A stretch of 64,000 nucleotides of DNA from Bradyrhizobium sp. CB2312 (GTDB lineage: Bacteria; Pseudomonadota; Alphaproteobacteria; Rhizobiales; Xanthobacteraceae). Shown piece after piece: positions 4,962 to 45,272 of the stretch. Position numbers and translations under genes: made by a program. The DNA lies in contig NZ_CP121668.1 of assembly GCF_029714425.1 (NCBI RefSeq), positions 4,795,501 through 4,859,500 on the forward strand, written 5' to 3'. The notes beneath the pieces are model-generated. The model saw nothing but the letters and a program-made list of their open reading frames with translations, searched no databases and was not told the origin of the DNA. Within the stretch, counting starts at the first letter, position 1; each line of letters opens with the position of its first letter.

Positions 4962-5681
4962 ATGAAGAAGAATCTGTTGCTCGCCGCTGTGAGCCTCGTC
5001 GCGCTCAGCGCGACTGCGCCGGCGCTGGCTGCTGATCTCGCTGCGCGTCCTTACACCAAGGCGCCTGCGATGGTCGCGACGATCTACGACTGGAGCGGCT
5101 TCTACATCGGTATCAACGGCGGCGGCGGTTCCTCGCACGCGACCTGGGATTTCGTCGGCATCGGCCGCGAAGGCTCGCACGATGCGACCGGCGGCACGGT
5201 CGGTGGCCAGGTCGGCTATCGCTGGCAGTCCGGCCAGTGGGTGTTCGGCGTGGAAGGCCAGGGCAACTGGGCCGACTTCTCCGGCGACAACGCCAGCGCG
5301 CTGTTCGCCACCCGCAACCGCACCAAGATCGACGCGTTCGGTCTGATCACCGGCCAGGTCGGCTACGCCTGGAACAACGTGCTCGTCTACGTCAAGGGCG
5401 GTGCGGCCGTGGTCAGCGACAAGTACGAGATCTTCGGGCTCGGTGGTCCGCTGCTCGCTTCGACCAGCGACACCCGCTGGGGCGGCACGGTCGGCGCCGG
5501 CCTCGAGTACGGCTTCGCTCCGAACTGGTCGGTCGGCGTCGAGTACAACCACATCTTCCTGTCGGACAAGGATGTCACCTTCGCTGGCTTCGCCGGCTCG
5601 GAGCGCATCAAGCAGGACGTCGACATGGGTCTCGTCCGCCTGAACTACAAGTTCGGCGGCCCGATCATCGGCCGTTACTGA
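4962..5681 (+). CDS. outer membrane beta-barrel protein, Omp25/Omp31 (RopB-like) family
   Basis: 239 residues. The signal peptide (KKNLLLAAVSLVALSA, cut near ALAADLA) is followed by the typical start DLAARPYTKAP and YDWSGFYIGINGG. The rest alternates Gly- and aromatic-rich strands expected of an eight-stranded barrel, and the last residues end LNYKFGGPIIGRY, a barrel-closing strand. Such proteins are abundant structural surface proteins of rhizobia. It is a single gene with a strong terminator immediately downstream. Start ATG 4962 is preceded by GGAACGGGAATCAA. Confidence 0.9.
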   Translation: MKKNLLLAAVSLVALSATAPALAADLAARPYTKAPAMVATIYDWSGFYIGINGGGGSSHATWDFVGIGREGSHDATGGTVGGQVGYRWQSGQWVFGVEGQGNWADFSGDNASALFATRNRTKIDAFGLITGQVGYAWNNVLVYVKGGAAVVSDKYEIFGLGGPLLASTSDTRWGGTVGAGLEYGFAPNWSVGVEYNHIFLSDKDVTFAGFAGSERIKQDVDMGLVRLNYKFGGPIIGRY

Positions 5682-5696
5682 GCAAAGTACTGAGAT

Positions 5697-5754
5697 CGAT
5701 CGCTCTGCAAGGAGCGATCGTCGAAAGCCCCGGCCTCGCGCCGGGGCTTTTTGT
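5697..5754 (+). terminator. rho-independent terminator of the beta-barrel protein gene
   Basis: A GC-rich hairpin (AAGCCCCGGC / GCCGGGGCTT, stems about 5725-5734 and 5740-5749) is followed by TTTTTGTTGTT. A second small dyad (CGATCGCTC / GAGCGATCG, 5697-5720) lies just before it. Confidence 0.9.
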
Positions 5755-5804
5755 TGTTGAAATTCAGATAGTTAACCATCCCGCTTCTCGGCGGCTGAGA
5801 TCGC

Positions 5805-5848
5805 TTGACTCCCAAGAACGAAATGAGAACAATGTTCTTCATACGTTC
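5805..5848 (+). promoter_or_regulatory. SOS promoter with two overlapping LexA boxes
   Basis: A sigma-70 type promoter TTGACT (5805-5810)-N17-AACAAT (5828-5833) is covered by two copies of the alphaproteobacterial LexA box. One is GAAC-N7-GAAC at 5816-5830, the other GTTC-N7-GTTC (same motif, other strand) at 5834-5848. Both fit the consensus exactly. Together they span the spacer, the -10 and the likely start point, which predicts tight repression by LexA. Confidence 0.85.
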
Positions 5849-5866
5849 TAGCAAGGGAGCGAGACC

Positions 5867-5965
5867 ATGTTCAGGATTTTCGTGGAAGAGGCGGCTGCAC
5901 TGGCGTCCATCACGCTGTTCGTCGGGATGATCGCAATCTGGGCGCAGGTCATTCCGCAGCTCTGA
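5867..5965 (+). CDS. SOS-controlled 32-residue membrane protein, SidA-like candidate
   Basis: A short open frame starting ATG at 5867, with AAGGGAG about 8 bases upstream and TGA at 5963-5965. The product has a charged N-terminus (MFRIFVEEAA), one hydrophobic segment (about residues 10-28: ALASITLFVGMIAIWAQV) and a short tail ending IPQL, so it should be a single-pass inner membrane protein. It begins 19 bases after a double LexA box and is therefore predicted to be induced by DNA damage. In Caulobacter the 29-residue SOS protein SidA blocks division at FtsW/FtsN; size, topology and control match, but homology has not been tested. Confidence 0.7.
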   Translation: MFRIFVEEAAALASITLFVGMIAIWAQVIPQL

Positions 5966-6147
5966 TTCCCCACTCTTGGCAGGCCCGGTTGGGGAAAAGC
6001 GGGACGACGCGACGGATCGGCCGGTCCGGCGTGGACTCTCGCGGCGCGACACCCCACCATTGTGAGGCGAGTCGGCCGGGCGAGTGCATGATGCCTTGAG
6101 GAGCCGGCGACCGCTCCATCTCATCTGCAAGAGGCCGTCACGCGACC

Positions 6148-9100
6148 ATGCCGAGCGCCGGATTTGTCCACCTTCACGTTCACTCGGCCTATTCGCTGCT
6201 CAAGGGCTCGATCAAGATCGCCAAGCTCGCCGAGCTTGCGAAGAAGGACCACCAGCCGGCGCTGGCGCTGACCGACACCGACAATCTGTTCGGCGCGCTG
6301 GAGTTCTCCGACAAGATGGCGGGCTCCGGCATCCAGCCGATCGTCGGCCTGGAACTGGCGATCGATTTCGGCGACCAGGACCCGACCGCGCGCAACGCGA
6401 TGGGGCCCTCGCGCGTGGTGCTGCTGGCGGCGCAGGAGCGCGGCTATCGCAGCCTGATGCGGCTGAACTCGCGCGCGTTCCTCGAATCGCCCGACAGCCA
6501 TGCCCCGTTCATCAAGTTCGACTGGTTCGACGGCGAGACCGAGGGCCTGATCGCGCTGACGGGCGGACCGGACGGGCCGATCTCGCTGGCGCTGGCCGGC
6601 GGCATGGCCGAGCTCGCCGCGACGCGCTGCGAGCGTCTGGCCAATCTGTTCGGCGACCGCCTCTACATCGAATTGCAGCGCCACAACCTCGACAAGGAGC
6701 GGCGCATCGAGGGCGGCTTGATCGACATCGCCTATGCGAAAGGCCTGCCGCTGGTCGCAACCAACGAGCCGTATTTCGCCGCGACCGACGACTACGAGGC
6801 GCATGACGCGCTGCTCTGCATCGCCGGCGGCCGGCTGATAGCCGAGACCGATCGCGTGCAGCTCACGCCGGATCATCGCTTCAAGACCCGCGCCGAGATG
6901 GCGGTGCTGTTCGCCGACATTCCGGAGGCGCTGGCCTCGACCGTGGAGATCGCCGAGCGCTGCTCGTTCCGCCCGATGACGCGCAAGCCGATCCTGCCGT
7001 TCTTCACCGTCGGCGCCGCCGCCAGCTCCGATGCCGCCGCGGTCGAGGCCGCCGAATTGAAGCGACAGGCGGAGGAGGGGCTCGCCAACCGCCTGCGCGT
7101 CCATGGCCTGTCGCAGGGCATGACGGAAGAGGACTACAACAAGCGCCTGGCGTTCGAGCTCGACGTCATCATGCGCATGAAGTACGCGGGCTACTTCCTG
7201 ATCGTGTCCGACTTCATCAAATGGGCCAAGGCGCACGGCATTCCGGTCGGGCCTGGCCGTGGCTCCGGCGCAGGCTCGCTGGTGGCGTGGGCGCTGACCA
7301 TCACCGACCTCGACCCGATCAAGTTCGGCCTGCTGTTCGAGCGCTTCCTCAATCCGGAACGCGTCTCGATGCCGGACTTCGACATCGACTTCTGCCAGGA
7401 CCGCCGCGGCGAGGTGATCAAGTACGTGCAGGAGCGCTACGGCCGCGATCAGGTCGCGCAGATCATCACCTTCGGTACGCTGCAGGCGCGCGGCGTGCTG
7501 CGCGATGTCGGCCGCGTCTTGCAGATGCCCTATGGCCAGGTCGACAAGCTGACGAAGCTCGTGCCGCAGAATCCGGCGGCGCCCGTCACGCTGGCGGCAG
7601 CGATCGAGAGCGAGCCAAAACTCCAGGCGTTCCGCGACGAAGACCCGGTGGTGGCGCGCGCCTTCGACATCGCCCAGCGCCTCGAAGGCCTGACCCGGCA
7701 TGCTTCGACCCACGCGGCCGGCATCGTGATCGGCGATCGCCCCCTGAGCGAGCTCGTGCCGATGTACCGCGATCCGAAGTCGGATATGCCGGTGACCCAG
7801 TTCAACATGAAATGGGTCGAGCCTGCGGGCCTCGTCAAGTTCGACTTCCTCGGCCTGAAGACGCTGACCGTGCTCGACGTCGCGTGCAAGCTGCTCAAGC
7901 CGCGCGACATCCATGTCGATCTCGCCACGCTGCCGATCGACGATGCCGAGAGCTACCAGATGCTGGCACGTGGCGAGGTGGTCGGCGTGTTCCAGGTTGA
8001 AAGCCAGGGCATGCGCCGCGCGCTGGTCGACATGCGCCCCGACCGTTTCGAGGACATCATCGCGCTGGTCGCGCTCTACCGCCCAGGCCCGATGGCGAAC
8101 ATCCCGACCTATTGCGCGCGCAAACACGGCGACGAGGAGCCGGAATATCTGCATCCCGTGCTGGAGCCGATCCTGAAGGAGACCTTCGGCGTCATCATTT
8201 ACCAGGAACAGGTGATGCAGATCGCGCAGGTGATGTCGGGCTATTCGCTCGGCGACGCCGACCTCCTGCGCCGCGCCATGGGCAAGAAGATCCGCGCCGA
8301 GATGGACAAGCAGCGCGACATCTTCGTCGCCGGCGCGGTGAAGAACGGCGTGCCGAAAGCGCAGGCCGAGACCATCTTCGAACTGCTCGCCAAATTCGCC
8401 GATTACGGCTTCAACAAGAGCCACGCGGCCGCCTACGCGCTGGTGTCCTACCACACCGCCTACATGAAGGCGCATTATCCCGTGGAGTTCATCGCGGCGT
8501 CGATGACGCTCGATCTGAACAACACTGACAAGCTCTCCGAATTCCGCTCCGAGGCGCAGCGCCTCGGCATCAAGGTCGAGCCGCCGAACATCAACCGCTC
8601 CGGCGCGACCTTCGAGGTCGGCGAGAAGGTCATCTATTACGCGCTGGCCGCGCTCAAGGGCGTCGGCATCCAGGCCATCGAGCAGATCATCGAGGAACGC
8701 ACCAGGCGGGGACTGTTCACCTCGCTCGCCGACTTCGCTGCGCGGGTCAATCCGCGCGCGATCAACAAGCGCATCATCGAGAGTTTAGCTGCCGCCGGCG
8801 CCTTCGACACGCTGGAGCCGAACCGGGCCCGCGTCTTCGCCGGCGCGGACGCGATCCTGGCCGCCTGCCAGCGTTCGCATCAGGCCGAGACGATCGGCCA
8901 GAACGACATGTTCGGCATGTCGGCGGACGCGCCGACCATCATGCTGCCGCAGATCGAGCCCTGGCTGCCGGCCGAGCGGCTGCGCCGCGAGTACGACGCG
9001 ATCGGCTTCTTCCTGTCGGGACATCCGCTCGACGATTACGCGACCGTGCTCAAGCGCCTGCGGGTGCAGTCATGGGCCGAGTTCTCGCGCGCGGTGAAGA

Positions 9101-9651
9101 CCGGCGCCACCGCCGGCAAGGTCGCCGCGACCGTCGTGTCGCGCATGGAGCGGCGCACCAAGACCGGCAACAAGATGGGCATCATGGGACTGTCCGACCC
9201 CACCGGCCATTTCGAGGCGGTGCTGTTCTCCGAGGGCCTCGCGCAATATCGCGACGTGCTGGAGCCGGGCGCCGCGGTGCTGCTTCAGCTCGGCGCGGAA
9301 TTGCAGGGCGAGGACGTTCGCGCCCGCGTGCTGCATGCCGAGCCGCTCGATGACGCCGCGGCCAAGACGCAGAAGGGCCTGCGCATCTTCCTGCGCGACA
9401 CCAAGCCGCTGGAGTCGATCGCCAAGCGCCTCGCCGGCCCCGAGATGGCGGCCACCAACGGCGCCGCGCCGAAAATCGGCAGCCCCGGCATCGCGCCGCG
9501 CTCCAATGGCGACGGCGAGGTCTCGCTGGTGATGATGCTCGACCTCGAGACCGAGGTCGAGATGAAGCTGCCGGGCCGCTTCAAGGTCTCGCCGCAGATC
9601 GCCGGCGCGATCAAGGCGGTGGCGGGCGTCGTGGACGTGCAGCAGCTCTAG
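6148..9651 (+). CDS. dnaE: DNA polymerase III alpha subunit (replicative, DnaE1 type)
   Basis: 1167 residues, the length of replicative DnaE1 rather than the shorter SOS polymerase DnaE2. Domains in order: N-terminal PHP domain (HLHVHSAYS at 8-16), the C-family polymerase core with catalytic Asp410/Asp412 in PDFDIDF and Asp566 in KFDFLGLKT, the GPGRGSGAGSLVAW nucleotide-binding loop, a helix-hairpin-helix region around 830-900 and an OB-fold near 990-1070. It synthesises both strands at the replication fork with the beta clamp. Start ATG 6148 has no strong ribosome site. The SOS micro-gene lies 182 bp upstream, so partial read-through is possible. Confidence 0.97.
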   Translation: MPSAGFVHLHVHSAYSLLKGSIKIAKLAELAKKDHQPALALTDTDNLFGALEFSDKMAGSGIQPIVGLELAIDFGDQDPTARNAMGPSRVVLLAAQERGYRSLMRLNSRAFLESPDSHAPFIKFDWFDGETEGLIALTGGPDGPISLALAGGMAELAATRCERLANLFGDRLYIELQRHNLDKERRIEGGLIDIAYAKGLPLVATNEPYFAATDDYEAHDALLCIAGGRLIAETDRVQLTPDHRFKTRAEMAVLFADIPEALASTVEIAERCSFRPMTRKPILPFFTVGAAASSDAAAVEAAELKRQAEEGLANRLRVHGLSQGMTEEDYNKRLAFELDVIMRMKYAGYFLIVSDFIKWAKAHGIPVGPGRGSGAGSLVAWALTITDLDPIKFGLLFERFLNPERVSMPDFDIDFCQDRRGEVIKYVQERYGRDQVAQIITFGTLQARGVLRDVGRVLQMPYGQVDKLTKLVPQNPAAPVTLAAAIESEPKLQAFRDEDPVVARAFDIAQRLEGLTRHASTHAAGIVIGDRPLSELVPMYRDPKSDMPVTQFNMKWVEPAGLVKFDFLGLKTLTVLDVACKLLKPRDIHVDLATLPIDDAESYQMLARGEVVGVFQVESQGMRRALVDMRPDRFEDIIALVALYRPGPMANIPTYCARKHGDEEPEYLHPVLEPILKETFGVIIYQEQVMQIAQVMSGYSLGDADLLRRAMGKKIRAEMDKQRDIFVAGAVKNGVPKAQAETIFELLAKFADYGFNKSHAAAYALVSYHTAYMKAHYPVEFIAASMTLDLNNTDKLSEFRSEAQRLGIKVEPPNINRSGATFEVGEKVIYYALAALKGVGIQAIEQIIEERTRRGLFTSLADFAARVNPRAINKRIIESLAAAGAFDTLEPNRARVFAGADAILAACQRSHQAETIGQNDMFGMSADAPTIMLPQIEPWLPAERLRREYDAIGFFLSGHPLDDYATVLKRLRVQSWAEFSRAVKTGATAGKVAATVVSRMERRTKTGNKMGIMGLSDPTGHFEAVLFSEGLAQYRDVLEPGAAVLLQLGAELQGEDVRARVLHAEPLDDAAAKTQKGLRIFLRDTKPLESIAKRLAGPEMAATNGAAPKIGSPGIAPRSNGDGEVSLVMMLDLETEVEMKLPGRFKVSPQIAGAIKAVAGVVDVQQL

Positions 9652-9680: not shown

Positions 9681-9788
9681 CCTGCGGAGCGGCGGACATT
9701 GTGGTCTCGCCAGATCATTGCGGCTATGATCGCGACGATGCAGCTCGTTTGCGCGGACGTTTTCGGCCGCACCGGGAGGAAGCGAGAC

Positions 9789-10529
9789 ATGTGCGAGCAA
9801 TGCCCACAATCCCTACATGACGAGATCACGCCGTCGCGGCGATCCGCGATGCTGTTTGCCGCCTCCGCGCTCGGCGTTGCCCTGAGCGGGGCCGCCTTCG
9901 CCAAGGAGACCAAAGCGCCACCCAAGCCGCAGAACGTGCTGGCGCCCGATGCGGCGCTGAAGCGGCTGATGGACGGCAATGCGCGCTATGTCCAGGGCGT
10001 TGCGCGGCGACATGATTTCAAGCACGAGCGTGAAGCGCTGGCGGGCGGCCAGAACCCGTTTGCCGCCGTGCTGAGCTGCGCCGATTCGCGCATCGCACCG
10101 GAATATGCCTTCGACACCGGCCGCGGCGATCTCTTCGTCTGCCGCATCGCCGGAAATTTCGCCGGCAACGAGATGATCGCCAGCATGGAATATGCGGTCG
10201 GGGTGCTCAATACGCCGCTGATCCTCGTTCTCGGCCATGACAGTTGCGGCGCGATCGATGCGACGCTGAAGGCGATCAAGGACAACACGTCGCCGCCGGG
10301 CCACATCCCCTCGCTCGTCGATGCGATCGCGCCTGCCGCCAAGGCTGCGATGCAGCAGGGCGGCGACGTGCTCGACCAGGCGATCCGGCAGAACGTGATC
10401 GACAATGTCGCCAAGCTGAAATCGGCGGCACCGATCCTCAATGCGGCCGTGGAGCAGGGCAAGCTGAAGGTCGTGGGCGGCATCTACCGGCTCACGACGG
10501 GAACGGTCGACCTGATCGCGCAGGGCTGA
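9789..10529 (+). CDS. beta-class carbonic anhydrase with Tat-type export signal
   Basis: 246 residues. Catalyses hydration of CO2 to bicarbonate. The zinc site is complete: Cys97, Asp99 and Arg101 in SCADSR, His150 and Cys153 in GHDSCGA. Before the enzyme lies a twin-Arg motif (SRRSAML, Arg17-Arg18) and a hydrophobic run ending AAFA at about 38, which points to Tat export into the periplasm. Start ATG 9789 was preferred over an in-frame start 30 codons upstream because GGGAGGAAGCGAG sits directly before it and gives a normal signal peptide. The next gene starts 164 bp downstream. Confidence 0.92.
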   Translation: MCEQCPQSLHDEITPSRRSAMLFAASALGVALSGAAFAKETKAPPKPQNVLAPDAALKRLMDGNARYVQGVARRHDFKHEREALAGGQNPFAAVLSCADSRIAPEYAFDTGRGDLFVCRIAGNFAGNEMIASMEYAVGVLNTPLILVLGHDSCGAIDATLKAIKDNTSPPGHIPSLVDAIAPAAKAAMQQGGDVLDQAIRQNVIDNVAKLKSAAPILNAAVEQGKLKVVGGIYRLTTGTVDLIAQG

Positions 10530-10693
10530 ACGAGCTGATCGCTTTCAGCGTCGTCACGCTGGCGCAGACAGCTATCGTCGGCGCCGGGCGCCATGCCACC
10601 GCCTCAATCCGAGCCTTTCGTTCAAGCGCCATTCAGCCAGCCGCGCGTCTGATGCGCGCTGGCACCTCAACCACAAAGCTGGGCAAGCAAGCC

Positions 10694-13153
10694 ATGCGTG
10701 GGACGCTCAAAGCCTTCATCTGCCTTCTCCTGCCGCTCGCGGTCCTTGCCGCGGGCGCACCGGAGCAGGCACGCGCGCAGCAGCCGGAAAAGCGCATCGC
10801 GCTCGTGGTCGGCAACGGCGCCTATGCCAAGTCGCCGCTGGCGACGACCGCGAACGATGCCGGCCTGATCGCGCAGACGCTGCAGGCGGCGGGCTTCGAC
10901 GTTGTCGGGGCGCGCGATCTCGATGGCGACACGCTGCGCAAGAGCTTTCGCGATTTCATCCAGAAGGCCCAGGCCTCCGGCCCCGGCACCGTCGCGATGA
11001 TCTATCTGGCCGGTTACGGCGTGCAGCTTGCGGGCGAGAACTATTTCATCCCGGTCGATTCCAACATCAGCCGCGACACCGACATTCCGACCGAAGCCTT
11101 GCGCATCAGCGACTATGTGCGCCAGCTCGCGTCGATCCAGCTCAAGGCCAACATCGTCGTGCTCGATGCGGCCCGCGCCCAGCCCTTCATCGAAGGCGGG
11201 CAGCCGATCGCCAGCGGCCTCGCGCTGGTCGAGCCCGAGGCGAACATGCTGATCGCCTTCAACGCCGCACCCGGCACTGTCGCGCCGGAAGAGCCGGGAC
11301 CCTACGGCATCTACGCGCAGTCGCTGGCCGAGATGATCCGCACCGGCGGGCTGGCGCTGCCTGACGTGTTCGACCGCGTCCGCCTGCGTGTCAACGAATC
11401 CGCCAAGGGCGCGCAGGTGCCCTGGAACGAGCAGAAGATCTCGGCGCAGTTCTCGTTCTTCGAGCGCGGGCCCGATGCGCCGCCGCCGGAGGTTGCGCCC
11501 GACCAGATCGCCGCGATCCGGAGCAAGCCGATCCGCGATCTCGGCGTGCAGGATGCCTATGCCGCCGCGCTCGCGCGTGACACGCTGCCGGCCTACGAGG
11601 AGTTTCTCGCGGCCTATCCCGGCGATCCCTTGTCGAAGCGCGTGATGGTGATCGTGGCGGCGCGCCGCGAGGCGATCACCTGGCGGCGGACCTATCGCGC
11701 CGACACGCCGGACGCCTATTGGTCCTATCTGCGCCGCTATTCGCGCGGGCCTCATGCCGGCGACGCGCGGCGTAGGCTTGCGATCCTGACCGCACCGCTC
11801 GAGCCGCCGCCGAGCTTCGCCATGCTGGATTACGACGTGCCGCCACCGCCGCCGGAGGAGGTGGTCTATGTCGACCGTCCCGTGCTGTACTTCAGCGACC
11901 CTGATTTCGGCTTCGCGCCGCCACCGCCGCCGCCGATCTATTATCTGCCGCCACCGCCGCCGGATTTCGTCGTGTTGCCGCCGCCGCTGCCGGTGGTCGG
12001 GCTGTTCGTGCTGCCGCAGCCGGTGTTCGTGCCGATTCCGGTGTTCGTCCGCCCGCCGATCTATGTCGCGCCGCCGCCGAACAACATCATCTACCAGAAC
12101 ATCCACAACACGACCGTCATCAACACCGTGATCAATCGCCCGCTGGCGCCGCCGCCGGGTTTCAGCACCGGAGCGGCCAGTCTGGCACCGGCGGTGGCCG
12201 GTCGCGCCAACCCCGCAGGCCCGGCGGTGCCGCAGGCCGTCGCCCAGCGCGCCGCCTTGATCCAGCAGGGCAAGGCGCCGATGCCGCAGAGCGCGACGAT
12301 CCAGCCGACGGCGAGGCCGGGAACACCCCCGGTGACACCGGCGAATGTTGCCCCGACCGCAGCGCCACCTGCCGCGCCGCCGCCCAGATTGCCCCAGGCC
12401 AACACGTTGCCGGTTCCCGGAGCCCAGGGTGGCCCGCCCGCGCCACCGGCGGGGGCCGGGCCTCTGCCCGGCGGCAAGCCCGCGCCGACCGCGACGGCTC
12501 CCGGCACGATAGCGCCGGTGCATCCGGGTGCGCCAACCGCGACGGCTCCCGGCACAACGCCGCCGGCCCATCCCGGTCCGCCAACGACGACCGCTCCGGC
12601 CGCTGCACTCGCGCCGACCAACCCGACTGCTGCGCCTGGCCAGCCGCCCAAGCCGCCGGTTGCGGGAGTGCCGCCCGGAACCGGGCCAGCGGATCGCGCC
12701 AAATCCGCAATCCGCGAGCCGGCCGGCTCGCCGCCGCCCGCTGCCGACACATCTGCGCGCCCCGCGGGACGACCGGCCGCGCCGCCACCCGCCGCTGCGC
12801 GCGAGCCGGCTAGGCCGCAGCATCTTCCGTCGGCTGCGCCGGCGCAGGTGACCCGGCCCTCGACCCCACCACCGCGGCCCCAGGCCGTGGCGAGGCCGAC
12901 GCCTCCGGCGCCAGCCGCCGTCGCGCGCCCGGCGCCACCGCCTCCGCCGCGCGTCGCATCGCCTCCACCGGCACGGGTGGCTCCCCCGGTCGCAGCCGCA
13001 CGGCCTGCACCGCCACCGCCCGCAGCCCGGCCGGCGCCCCCGCCGCCACCCCGGGTGGCGGTTGCCCCGCCAGCCCGGCCGGCCGCACCGCCGCGTCCTG
13101 CGGCACCGCCGGCCGCCGCGAAGAAGTGCCCGCCCAACCAGCCGAAGTGCTAA
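10694..13153 (+). CDS. exported caspase-like (C14) protein with both catalytic residues replaced; proline-rich tail
   Basis: 819 residues: signal peptide (1-29), caspase-like p20 domain (about 32-255), a linker of short tetratrico-like helices (about 270-375), then 440 residues dominated by Pro and Ala. In active family members the dyad sits in AGHG and LDACR; here these read AGYGVQ (Tyr108) and LDAARAQ (Ala160), so the fold is kept but proteolysis is not expected. The tail contains PPPP runs, a segment of alternating Val and Pro (about 430-460), APGT-type repeats and ends KKCPPNQPKC. Start ATG 10694 gives the signal peptide. A binding or scaffold role in the envelope is inferred. Confidence 0.85.
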   Translation: MRGTLKAFICLLLPLAVLAAGAPEQARAQQPEKRIALVVGNGAYAKSPLATTANDAGLIAQTLQAAGFDVVGARDLDGDTLRKSFRDFIQKAQASGPGTVAMIYLAGYGVQLAGENYFIPVDSNISRDTDIPTEALRISDYVRQLASIQLKANIVVLDAARAQPFIEGGQPIASGLALVEPEANMLIAFNAAPGTVAPEEPGPYGIYAQSLAEMIRTGGLALPDVFDRVRLRVNESAKGAQVPWNEQKISAQFSFFERGPDAPPPEVAPDQIAAIRSKPIRDLGVQDAYAAALARDTLPAYEEFLAAYPGDPLSKRVMVIVAARREAITWRRTYRADTPDAYWSYLRRYSRGPHAGDARRRLAILTAPLEPPPSFAMLDYDVPPPPPEEVVYVDRPVLYFSDPDFGFAPPPPPPIYYLPPPPPDFVVLPPPLPVVGLFVLPQPVFVPIPVFVRPPIYVAPPPNNIIYQNIHNTTVINTVINRPLAPPPGFSTGAASLAPAVAGRANPAGPAVPQAVAQRAALIQQGKAPMPQSATIQPTARPGTPPVTPANVAPTAAPPAAPPPRLPQANTLPVPGAQGGPPAPPAGAGPLPGGKPAPTATAPGTIAPVHPGAPTATAPGTTPPAHPGPPTTTAPAAALAPTNPTAAPGQPPKPPVAGVPPGTGPADRAKSAIREPAGSPPPAADTSARPAGRPAAPPPAAAREPARPQHLPSAAPAQVTRPSTPPPRPQAVARPTPPAPAAVARPAPPPPPRVASPPPARVAPPVAAARPAPPPPAARPAPPPPPRVAVAPPARPAAPPRPAAPPAAAKKCPPNQPKC

Positions 13154-19807: not shown

Positions 19808-20959
19808 ATGATCGACTTTTTCGTCCATAGTTTCAATGCCTTGAGCCATGGGCTTCTCGGTTACGTGGTTCCCTTCCTGTTCGTCCTGACCATCGTGGTG
19901 TTCTTCCACGAGCTCGGCCATTTCCTGGTCGCGCGCTGGGCAGGCGTGCGCGTGCTGACCTTTTCGCTCGGTTTCGGACCCGAGCTGGTCGGTTTCAACG
20001 ATCGCCACGGCACCCGCTGGAAGATCTCGGCCATCCCGCTCGGCGGCTACGTCAAGTTCTTCGGCGACGAGAGCGAAGCCTCGACCCCGTCGGCCGAGAT
20101 GCTCGCGGCCATGACCGCGGAGGAGCGCGCCGGCAGCTTCCACCACAAGAAGGTCGGCCCGCGTGCCGCCATTGTCGCGGCCGGCCCGATCGCGAATTTC
20201 ATCCTGGGTGCGCTGATCTTCGCCGGCATGGCGCTTTATTACGGCAAGCCGAGCACGATCGCGCGCGTTGACGGCGTCGTCGCCGAAGGCGCTGCGGCCG
20301 CAGCCGGCTTCAAGATCGGCGACGTCGTCGTCCAGATCGACGGCAAGCCGATCGAGAGCTTCGCCGACATGCAGCGAATCGTCGCGATGAATGCTGGTTC
20401 GGCGCTTGCCTTCCAGGTGAAGCGGGACGGCGCCATCGTGTCGCTGACCGCAACCCCGGCATTGCTCGAGCGCAAGGATCCCTTCGGCAACAGCCACAGA
20501 GTCGGCGTGCTCGGCGTCGAGCACAAATCGCAGGCCGGCGAGGCCTCGACCGCGCCGGTCGGTATCGGTGAAGCGCTCAAGATCGGCGTCGAGCAGGTCT
20601 GGTTCATCATCACCAGCACCTTCAAGTTCCTGGGCTCGCTATTCGTCGGACAGGGCAATCCGAACGAGGTCAGCGGCGTCCTGGGAATCGCGAAGATGTC
20701 GGGGCAGGCGGCCAGCGCCGGGTTCCAGTTCGTGATCAACCTGTGCGCGGTGCTGTCAGTGTCGATCGGTCTGCTGAACCTGTTCCCGATTCCGCTGCTC
20801 GATGGCGGTCACCTTATGTTCTACGCAGCGGAAGTGGTGCGCGGCCGGCCTCTATCCGAGCGAACTCAGGAAATGGGGTTCCGAATCGGACTCGGTTTGG
20901 TGCTGATGCTGATGGTGTTTGCGACCTACAACGACATCCTTCGGATGGCGGCTTCCTGA
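19808..20959 (+). CDS. rseP: site-2 zinc metalloprotease RseP/MmpA
   Basis: 383 residues. Intramembrane protease with HELGH (His34, Glu35, His38) in the first membrane helix, a periplasmic PDZ domain (about 125-210; GAAAAAGFKIGDVVVQIDGKP region) and the third metal ligand in LFPIPLLDGGHL near residue 330. Members cut anti-sigma factors or, in Caulobacter (MmpA), the polarity protein PodJ. Here the target is unknown. It sits between dxr and bamA, fitting a link to envelope stress. Confidence 0.96.
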   Translation: MIDFFVHSFNALSHGLLGYVVPFLFVLTIVVFFHELGHFLVARWAGVRVLTFSLGFGPELVGFNDRHGTRWKISAIPLGGYVKFFGDESEASTPSAEMLAAMTAEERAGSFHHKKVGPRAAIVAAGPIANFILGALIFAGMALYYGKPSTIARVDGVVAEGAAAAAGFKIGDVVVQIDGKPIESFADMQRIVAMNAGSALAFQVKRDGAIVSLTATPALLERKDPFGNSHRVGVLGVEHKSQAGEASTAPVGIGEALKIGVEQVWFIITSTFKFLGSLFVGQGNPNEVSGVLGIAKMSGQAASAGFQFVINLCAVLSVSIGLLNLFPIPLLDGGHLMFYAAEVVRGRPLSERTQEMGFRIGLGLVLMLMVFATYNDILRMAAS

Positions 20960-44435: not shown

Positions 44436-44465
44436 TCAGTACTTCCGGTATCAGTACTTCCGATA
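44436..44465. repeat. 15-bp tandem duplication at the lexA stop
   Basis: Two adjacent 15-mers (44436-44450 and 44451-44465) differ at one base. The second contains the last codons and the stop of lexA; the first repeats them just downstream, in frame, including a second TGA. Confidence 0.7.
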
Positions 44466-45152
44466 AAGCCCGATCAGCTTGCCCTGAATCTTGACCCGGT
44501 TCGGCGGCAGGATGCGTACCTCATAGGCCGCATTGGCGGGCTCGAGCGCGATCGAGGCGCCGCGGCGGCGGAAGCGCTTCAAGGTCGCTTCCTCGTCGTC
44601 GATCAGCGCCACCACGATGTCGCCGGTGTCGGCGCTCTCGTTGCGCTGGATCAGCGCCATGTCGCCGTCGAGTATGCCGGCTTCCACCATGGAATCGCCG
44701 CGCACTTCGAGCGCGTAGTGCTCGCCAGAGCCGAGCATGTCGGGCGGGACGCTAATGGTGTGGCTGCGGGTCTGCAACGCCTCGATCGGCGTGCCGGCCG
44801 CGATACGGCCCATCACGGGCACCGCGACGGGACGCTCGCCCTCGTCCGCGGGCGGGCTGGAGGTCGTGCGGACCTTGCCGAGGTTGCCCTCGATGACGCT
44901 CGGCGTGAAGCCGCGACGATTGCCGGCGGCGGCCTGCAGCTCAGGCAGCTTGATCACCTCGATGGCGCGGGCGCGGTTGGGCAGGCGGCGGATGAAGCCG
45001 CGCTCCTCGAGCGCGGTGATCAGGCGATGGATGCCTGATTTCGAGCGCAGGTCGAGCGCGTCCTTCATCTCGTCGAAGGATGGCGGCACGCCGCTTTCCT
45101 TCAGTCGCTCGCTGATGAACCGCAGGAGCTCGTACTGTTTGCGCGTTAACAT
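44451..45152 (-). CDS. lexA: SOS repressor LexA
   Basis: 233 residues. N-terminal winged helix ([34 protein letters not shown]), a linker, then the S24 autoprotease: cleavage site Ala119-Gly120 in [10 protein letters not shown], nucleophile Ser154 in RGDSMVEAG and general base Lys192 in EATLKRF. RecA filaments trigger self-cleavage and SOS induction. ATG 45152 is the conserved family start; the frame extends 23 codons upstream without conservation. A LexA box lies about 100 bp upstream. It also predicts the repressor for the micro-gene at 5867. Confidence 0.97.
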
Positions 45153-45245
45153 CTCGACCAAAATCCCCCGGTTGATGTCGTTCGATTCCGAGACGATGAA
45201 TTCAGCGATAAGTCGCTGCATGCTCGAAACAAATCATGAACGGAC

Positions 45246-45272
45246 ACTATATGTTCGATACATGTTCCGCAA
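45246..45272 (-). promoter_or_regulatory. lexA promoter with one LexA box
   Basis: On the minus strand TTGCGG (45272-45267) and TATAGT (45251-45246) are separated by 15 bases. A perfect GAAC-N7-GAAC box occupies 45253-45267, between the two hexamers, so LexA should repress its own gene. Confidence 0.8.

Follow-up and report, generated by a model that had tools for sequence, protein, structure and literature searches.

A probable SidA-family gene behind paired LexA boxes and ahead of dnaE in Bradyrhizobium sp. CB2312, with relatives in many Alphaproteobacteria

SidA and other small membrane inhibitors of cell division

SidA of Caulobacter crescentus has been described as a 29-residue, LexA-controlled inner-membrane protein that blocks division and binds FtsW and FtsN, and its effect is reported to be suppressed by mutations in ftsW or ftsI (PMC4211646). 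Its gene carries the locus tag CCNA_02004 (PMC10769358). DidA from the same organism is likewise a small single-helix inner-membrane division inhibitor, whereas it is described as 71 amino acids long, SOS-independent and binding to FtsN (PMC4211646). YneA from Bacillus, ChiZ from Mycobacterium, and SosA from Staphylococcus are comparable as damage-induced membrane division inhibitors; in contrast to the peptide considered here, YneA and ChiZ carry LysM domains (PMC13396833), and yneA, divS, chiZ, and sidA have been called unrelated genes (PMC4211646). According to a study from 2026, YneA contacts FtsW, and models of low confidence predict such a contact for ChiZ, SosA, and SidA as well, in the case of SidA with transmembrane helix 7 of FtsW (PMC13396833). 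A description of SidA outside Caulobacter was not found in the literature searched, which covered few subscription papers.

The DNA analyzed here, referred to as the window, is a stretch of 64,000 nucleotides from Bradyrhizobium sp. CB2312. It contains a 32-codon open reading frame at positions 5867-5965 that, judged from its sequence and surroundings, is very probably a SidA-family gene and the counterpart of Caulobacter SidA.

Organization of the locus

The small gene (5867-5965, + strand; MFRIFVEEAAALASITLFVGMIAIWAQVIPQL) is defined by its open reading frame, its conservation, and a profile match, and is preceded by the Shine-Dalgarno-like sequence AAGGGAG (5853-5859, + strand), which was read from the sequence. 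The initial annotation had described, within 5797-5965, a frame of this length encoding one membrane helix behind two exact LexA boxes that overlap a sigma-70-like promoter. The frame was confirmed, its helix is predicted by hydropathy, and promoter and boxes were recovered where they had been placed; only the distance between the second box and the ATG had to be corrected, from 19 to 18 bases. The -35 element TTGACT (5805-5810, + strand), with a mean identity to the window base of 0.99 in 36 genomes, is followed after a spacer of 17 nt by the -10-like hexamer AACAAT (5828-5833, + strand). Together they match the consensus at 9 of 12 positions, and a consensus scan of shuffled versions of 5500-6500 gave a mean of 0.1 such sites. 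LexA box 1, GAACGAAATGAGAAC (GAAC-N7-GAAC; 5816-5830, + strand), includes the first three bases of the -10 hexamer, the remainder of which fills the gap to box 2, GTTCTTCATACGTTC (GTTC-N7-GTTC; 5834-5848, + strand). The second box thus begins 3 nt past the first, in an inverted arrangement.

Downstream, 182 nt separate the stop codon of the small gene from dnaE (6148-9651, + strand), which encodes the 1167-residue alpha subunit of DNA polymerase III with the Pfam domains PHP, DNA_pol3_alpha, and DNA_pol3_finger. A consensus scan found no terminator-like site on the + strand between the small frame and dnaE, so that transcripts of the small gene may read through into dnaE. The structure of the leader RNA is ordinary (z 0.94; 83 of 100 shuffles fold equally well). 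The upstream neighbor is a gene for an outer-membrane beta-barrel protein (4962-5681; PF13505). At its 3' side, the same type of scan placed a terminator-like site (5723-5751, + strand) that would isolate the SOS promoter from the beta-barrel gene. Weak Rfam matches to BSnc120, SorX, and anti-hemB, far under their gathering scores, lie over this site at 5686-5770 (+ strand). Beyond dnaE, the frame 9699-10529 looks by eye like a beta-carbonic anhydrase gene, and the long frame 10244-13153 (+ strand) that follows it appears, also by eye, to encode a caspase-like domain and then a very proline-rich tail.

LexA boxes and the repressor

Single LexA boxes are not rare in this DNA. The window holds 4, with 1.5 expected, and the genome holds 183, compared with 280 for the reversed pattern; counting single boxes as evidence was dropped as uninformative. 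One such exact LexA-like box, at 19868-19882, lies inside the frame 19808-20959, which looks by eye like an RseP-type site-2 protease gene, and is probably a chance match. The inverted pair GAAC-N7-GAAC-N3-GTTC-N7-GTTC, on the other hand, is confined to a single site here. Of 117 genomes of the genus, this one included, 116 carry the pair exactly once, compared with 1 of 117 for the reversed pattern; the genome without the pair (G835) is represented by an assembly that is 81% complete. In the cases compared (G002, G014, and G022), the pair sits at the promoter of the small gene, and both exact boxes precede the small gene in all 36 genus genomes examined, with mean identities to the window base of 0.86 for box 1 and 0.90 for box 2. 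The motif GTTC-N7-GTTC corresponds to the published LexA motif of Caulobacter (PMC12700426).

The window also encodes the repressor. A lexA gene (44451-45221, - strand; TIGR00498 with 185.2 bits, above the cut-off; PF01726, LexA_DNA_bind, and PF00717), whose family match begins at 45155, has a LexA box of its own upstream at 45253-45267 (- strand) and is 38 kb away from the small gene. The locus tags of lexA (CC1902) and dnaE (CC1926) lie close together in C. crescentus as well (PMC1839093). Elsewhere in the Bradyrhizobium genome, recA is preceded by a LexA box that begins 149 nt before the recA family match.

The small frame as a protein gene

Conservation of the frame in related genomes and its pattern of synonymous and nonsynonymous changes, which the initial annotation had named as ways to judge it, both speak for a protein gene. 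All 36 genus genomes, including that of the window, have an open frame here, and the encoded peptides are 78-100% identical. The 36 distinct gene sequences, encoding 23 different peptides, give a pN/pS of 0.144 and a dN/dS of about 0.10, indicating strong purifying selection; the same ratio read in the two other frames amounts to 1.9 and 5.4. Among the 32 codons, 14, 4, and 28 columns are variable at the first, second, and third codon position, respectively. Mean identity to the window base within the genus is 0.87 for the frame and 0.61-0.67 for the spacer to dnaE. From this conservation and selection pattern it follows that 5867-5965 is a protein gene under selection. The peptide matched no family in either Pfam or NCBIfam up to E = 10, and genes this short are easily overlooked in annotation.

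The probable Caulobacter counterpart

The initial annotation had suggested that sidA also lies next to dnaE in Caulobacter. This proved right insofar as a 29-codon frame, MIR(I/V)ARESLALVSVA(S/G)FVWMMCTVA(N/Q)LVA, directly precedes dnaE in all four genomes titled Caulobacter. In each of them, its promoter has a single exact LexA box and two further near ones. A homologue is found in 60 of 61 genomes of the genus group at E up to 0.01 (in G760 only residues 1-18), and ten loci of the group all have the same exact box, with the FVHLR motif of DnaE lying 137-161 nt past the start of the frame. On the side away from dnaE, the frame is flanked in three of the four genomes by a gene with a nucleoside hydrolase motif, assigned to PF01156 at one locus (L163), and in the fourth by lolD. 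CCNA_02005 has been listed as an inosine-uridine nucleoside hydrolase (PMC3667746). Since size, LexA control, the tags CCNA_02004 and CCNA_02005, and the hydrolase neighbor agree, the frame was taken as sidA, an assignment to which the published locus tags and the neighbors point. Arithmetic with the tags gives weak support: in strain CB15, dnaE is CC1926 and recN is CC1983 (PMC1839093), and recN is also listed as ccna_02062 (PMC12700426). This offset would put dnaE at CCNA_02005, so that the tags agree only within about two.

Homology between the two peptides was examined with a profile for which the window's order supplied 54 sequences, including the window's own and excluding Caulobacter members. 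It gave 26.1-29.1 bits for three variants of the Caulobacter peptide taken as SidA. In a scored pool of 941 small membrane frames from all loci and the window, the best unrelated one reached 5.8 bits after family members, frames before dnaE, and the small frames L099 (18.6 bits), L102 (16.4 bits), and L124 (13.2 bits) had been set aside; the last three, whose status is unclear, are unfair decoys because they were found by searches with SidA-family profiles. With a full profile of 69 members, the Caulobacter peptide scored 26.3 bits, which was reached by none of the 19,986 shuffles scored out of 20,000 made (best 17.2 bits). The direct comparison of the two peptides is less distinct, with a BLOSUM62 score of 31 that 6 of 20,000 shuffles reach (best 36). 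As pairwise similarity is weak, SidA homology rests on the family profile together with synteny.

By eye, family members share a short N-terminus that often contains a basic residue, followed by an acidic residue around position 8, then A-L/F, and often F near position 18 and W near position 25. In an alignment of 15 sequences, W25 is invariant, the same column holding V in Caulobacter, and identity to the window peptide ranges from 26 to 88% outside the genus.

The resemblance to SidA in control, size, and topology that had been proposed initially therefore extends to neighborhood and sequence. Both genes have LexA boxes at the promoter, encode about 30 residues with a single membrane helix (32 residues with a predicted helix in the window, 29 in SidA), stand directly before dnaE (for SidA as seen in other Caulobacter genomes), and are recognizable by the profile at 26-29 bits. 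Unlike SidA, the window peptide is three residues longer, its promoter has an inverted pair of exact boxes where SidA has a single exact box plus two imperfect ones, and its upstream neighbor is the beta-barrel gene instead of lolD or a nucleoside hydrolase gene.

Distribution of the family before dnaE

In a profile search across the order, 65 of 297 genomes matched at E up to 0.1. Some of these matches are genuine members, others accidental fragments of long frames; weak matches in G133, G164, G150, G183, and G069 are real, as they adjoin dnaE. A search across the class with a limit of E = 1 gave matches in 178 of 385 genomes, for the most part by chance, and among the matches listed only those of the same genus and that in G116 were convincing. 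For this reason, the region in front of dnaE was inspected directly instead, in 199 genomes, 116 of the window's order and 83 of other orders of the class. The order sample comprised 130 genomes searched, of which 129 had a DnaE match and 116 were read. Among the 13 unread ones, four (G184, G049, G052, and G071) already had a member by peptide search, and the others (G175, G149, G100, G235, G038, G159, G088, G125, and G095), mostly small or divergent genomes, were passed over. In the class sample, 138 of 143 genomes searched gave a match, three of them from the window's order, and 83 of the other 135 were read. They were taken from the most DnaE-similar downwards (G499 was skipped), so that divergent genomes are under-sampled, and some upstream regions are short at contig ends, such as that of G348 with 196 nt only.

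An exact LexA box precedes dnaE in 62 of the 116 order genomes and in 21 of the 83 others. A box followed at 8-80 nt by a frame of 24-50 residues with a strongly hydrophobic stretch was found in 69 of 199 genomes (54 of 116 in the order, 15 of 83 in other orders). The reversed box occurred 4 times in the order and 3 times in other orders and formed no pair with such a frame, and a small membrane frame starts by chance 8-80 nt past a random point in 116 of 2600 cases in upstream regions without a match. Allowing one mismatch in the box raised the count to 80 of 199, while the reversed control reached 19 of 199, mostly with matches landing near the same family frames; because of this control, only exact boxes were used.

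Independently of the box, the profile of the order gave at least 10 bits for a same-strand frame before dnaE in 67 of 116 order genomes, 54 of which contribute to the profile itself, and in 11 of 83 genomes of other orders, none of which does. Opposite-strand matches numbered one in the order and none elsewhere. The former is a family-like frame (L219 in G129) with 26.1 bits, for which no exact LexA box was found in the 150 nt before its conserved part. By profile or box, a member stands before dnaE in 67 of 116 order genomes and 16 of 83 others, the kinship of 5 of the 15 box-linked frames from other orders resting on position and control, as they score below 10 bits. Neither test found a member before dnaE in 49 of 116 order genomes, including G129 with its inverted copy, or in 67 of 83 others; there the gene may have been lost, moved, or become unrecognizable.

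The commonest length among the 69 box-linked relatives, which were selected for 24-50 residues and a hydrophobic stretch, is exactly 32 residues (29 cases). As start codons were chosen to give a length closest to 32 residues, individual starts may be wrong and the modal length is biased towards this value. At least two exact boxes within 130 nt are present in 15 of the 69 members; in Caulobacter, about 97% of SOS promoters are reported to have one box (PMC12700426). Three members (L172, L175, and L176; family f20) have GTTC-N7-GTTC near -80 and GAAC-N7-GAAC near -50, a layout unlike that of the window's genus.

Proposed function and alternative explanations

Taken as a whole, the most probable explanation, with a probability of roughly 0.85, is that the small gene is a sidA orthologue that is repressed by LexA, induced by DNA damage, and holds the septal FtsW/FtsI/FtsN complex inactive. 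What is observed is the gene, the selection acting on it, its conserved boxes, lexA and recA with boxes of their own, the homology to Caulobacter, and the place before dnaE. Derepression by damage, translation, and membrane insertion of the peptide are inferred, and division arrest through FtsW/FtsN in Bradyrhizobium would be carried over by analogy with Caulobacter. LexA bound to both boxes would cover the spacer, the -10 hexamer, and the start region, and as such should exclude RNA polymerase and keep the gene off. Such a double site would point to particularly stringent repression, in keeping with reports that constitutive sidA expression causes extreme filamentation in Caulobacter lexA mutants and that filaments are relieved in the lexA sidA double mutant (PMC12700426). 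After DNA damage, RecA-promoted cleavage of LexA would release a short transcript starting at about 5840, and the 32-residue peptide would insert into the inner membrane and hold the FtsW/FtsI/FtsN septal peptidoglycan complex inactive until the damage is repaired, a mode of action that has been proposed for SidA (PMC4211646).

The best-surviving alternative, although unlikely, is that a true SidA relative has moved to another membrane target in this lineage, such as FtsN, FtsI, FtsK, or a protein outside the divisome. The strong drift of the family outside the genus, with its 26-88% identity to the window peptide, would leave room for this, and no target test of SidA relatives beyond Caulobacter was found in the literature searched. 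Within the genus, however, the peptide is under strong constraint, and the 2026 study points to FtsW even for unrelated SOS inhibitors, its models for SidA being of low confidence (PMC13396833).

Considerably less probable is an SOS-induced toxin that acts by depolarizing the membrane and not by a septal block, and that slows growth or gives rise to persisters. Its model would be TisB of Escherichia coli, a LexA-controlled single-helix membrane peptide of 29 residues, and size and control alone cannot separate the two kinds. TisB, however, is a depolarizing toxin that is accompanied by an antisense RNA. What ties the small gene to SidA is its homology and the gene order they have in common. 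Judged by eye, the window peptide has an apolar predicted helix whose N-terminal end holds two acidic residues, unlike a cationic amphipathic peptide. No known antisense-RNA family exceeded its Rfam gathering score in 5300-6500, where the six matches reach about half of these scores or less (best 26.3 bits versus 114), although an antisense RNA of an undescribed kind may be present. That the boxes instead serve dnaE, so that damage would raise the polymerase by way of a long leader in which the small frame is a leader peptide or incidental, is the least probable reading: read-through is possible and the order of small frame and dnaE is kept across families, but conservation across families is seen in the amino acid sequence and less in the spacer, the stop codon lies anywhere from 31 to 605 nt before the DnaE match in 69 genomes, and the Caulobacter counterpart is an established protein. 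Co-transcription with dnaE could add to a SidA role but hardly replace it.

Significance of the SidA-like family

The main gain of the analysis is a wider SidA-like family before dnaE in many alphaproteobacteria. The profile, combined with the position before dnaE, yields a direct sidA candidate in many genomes, and the variation over dozens of related helices represents a natural mutational scan of the FtsW contact, as far as this contact can be inferred from Caulobacter. More tentatively, and with lower odds than even, SidA might be an ancestral SOS checkpoint of the Alphaproteobacteria that has been kept next to dnaE since its LexA promoter also reads into dnaE, with the window's genus having evolved a double-box, tightly closed promoter. 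If true, a single damage signal would at once arrest septation and increase the alpha subunit of DNA polymerase III.
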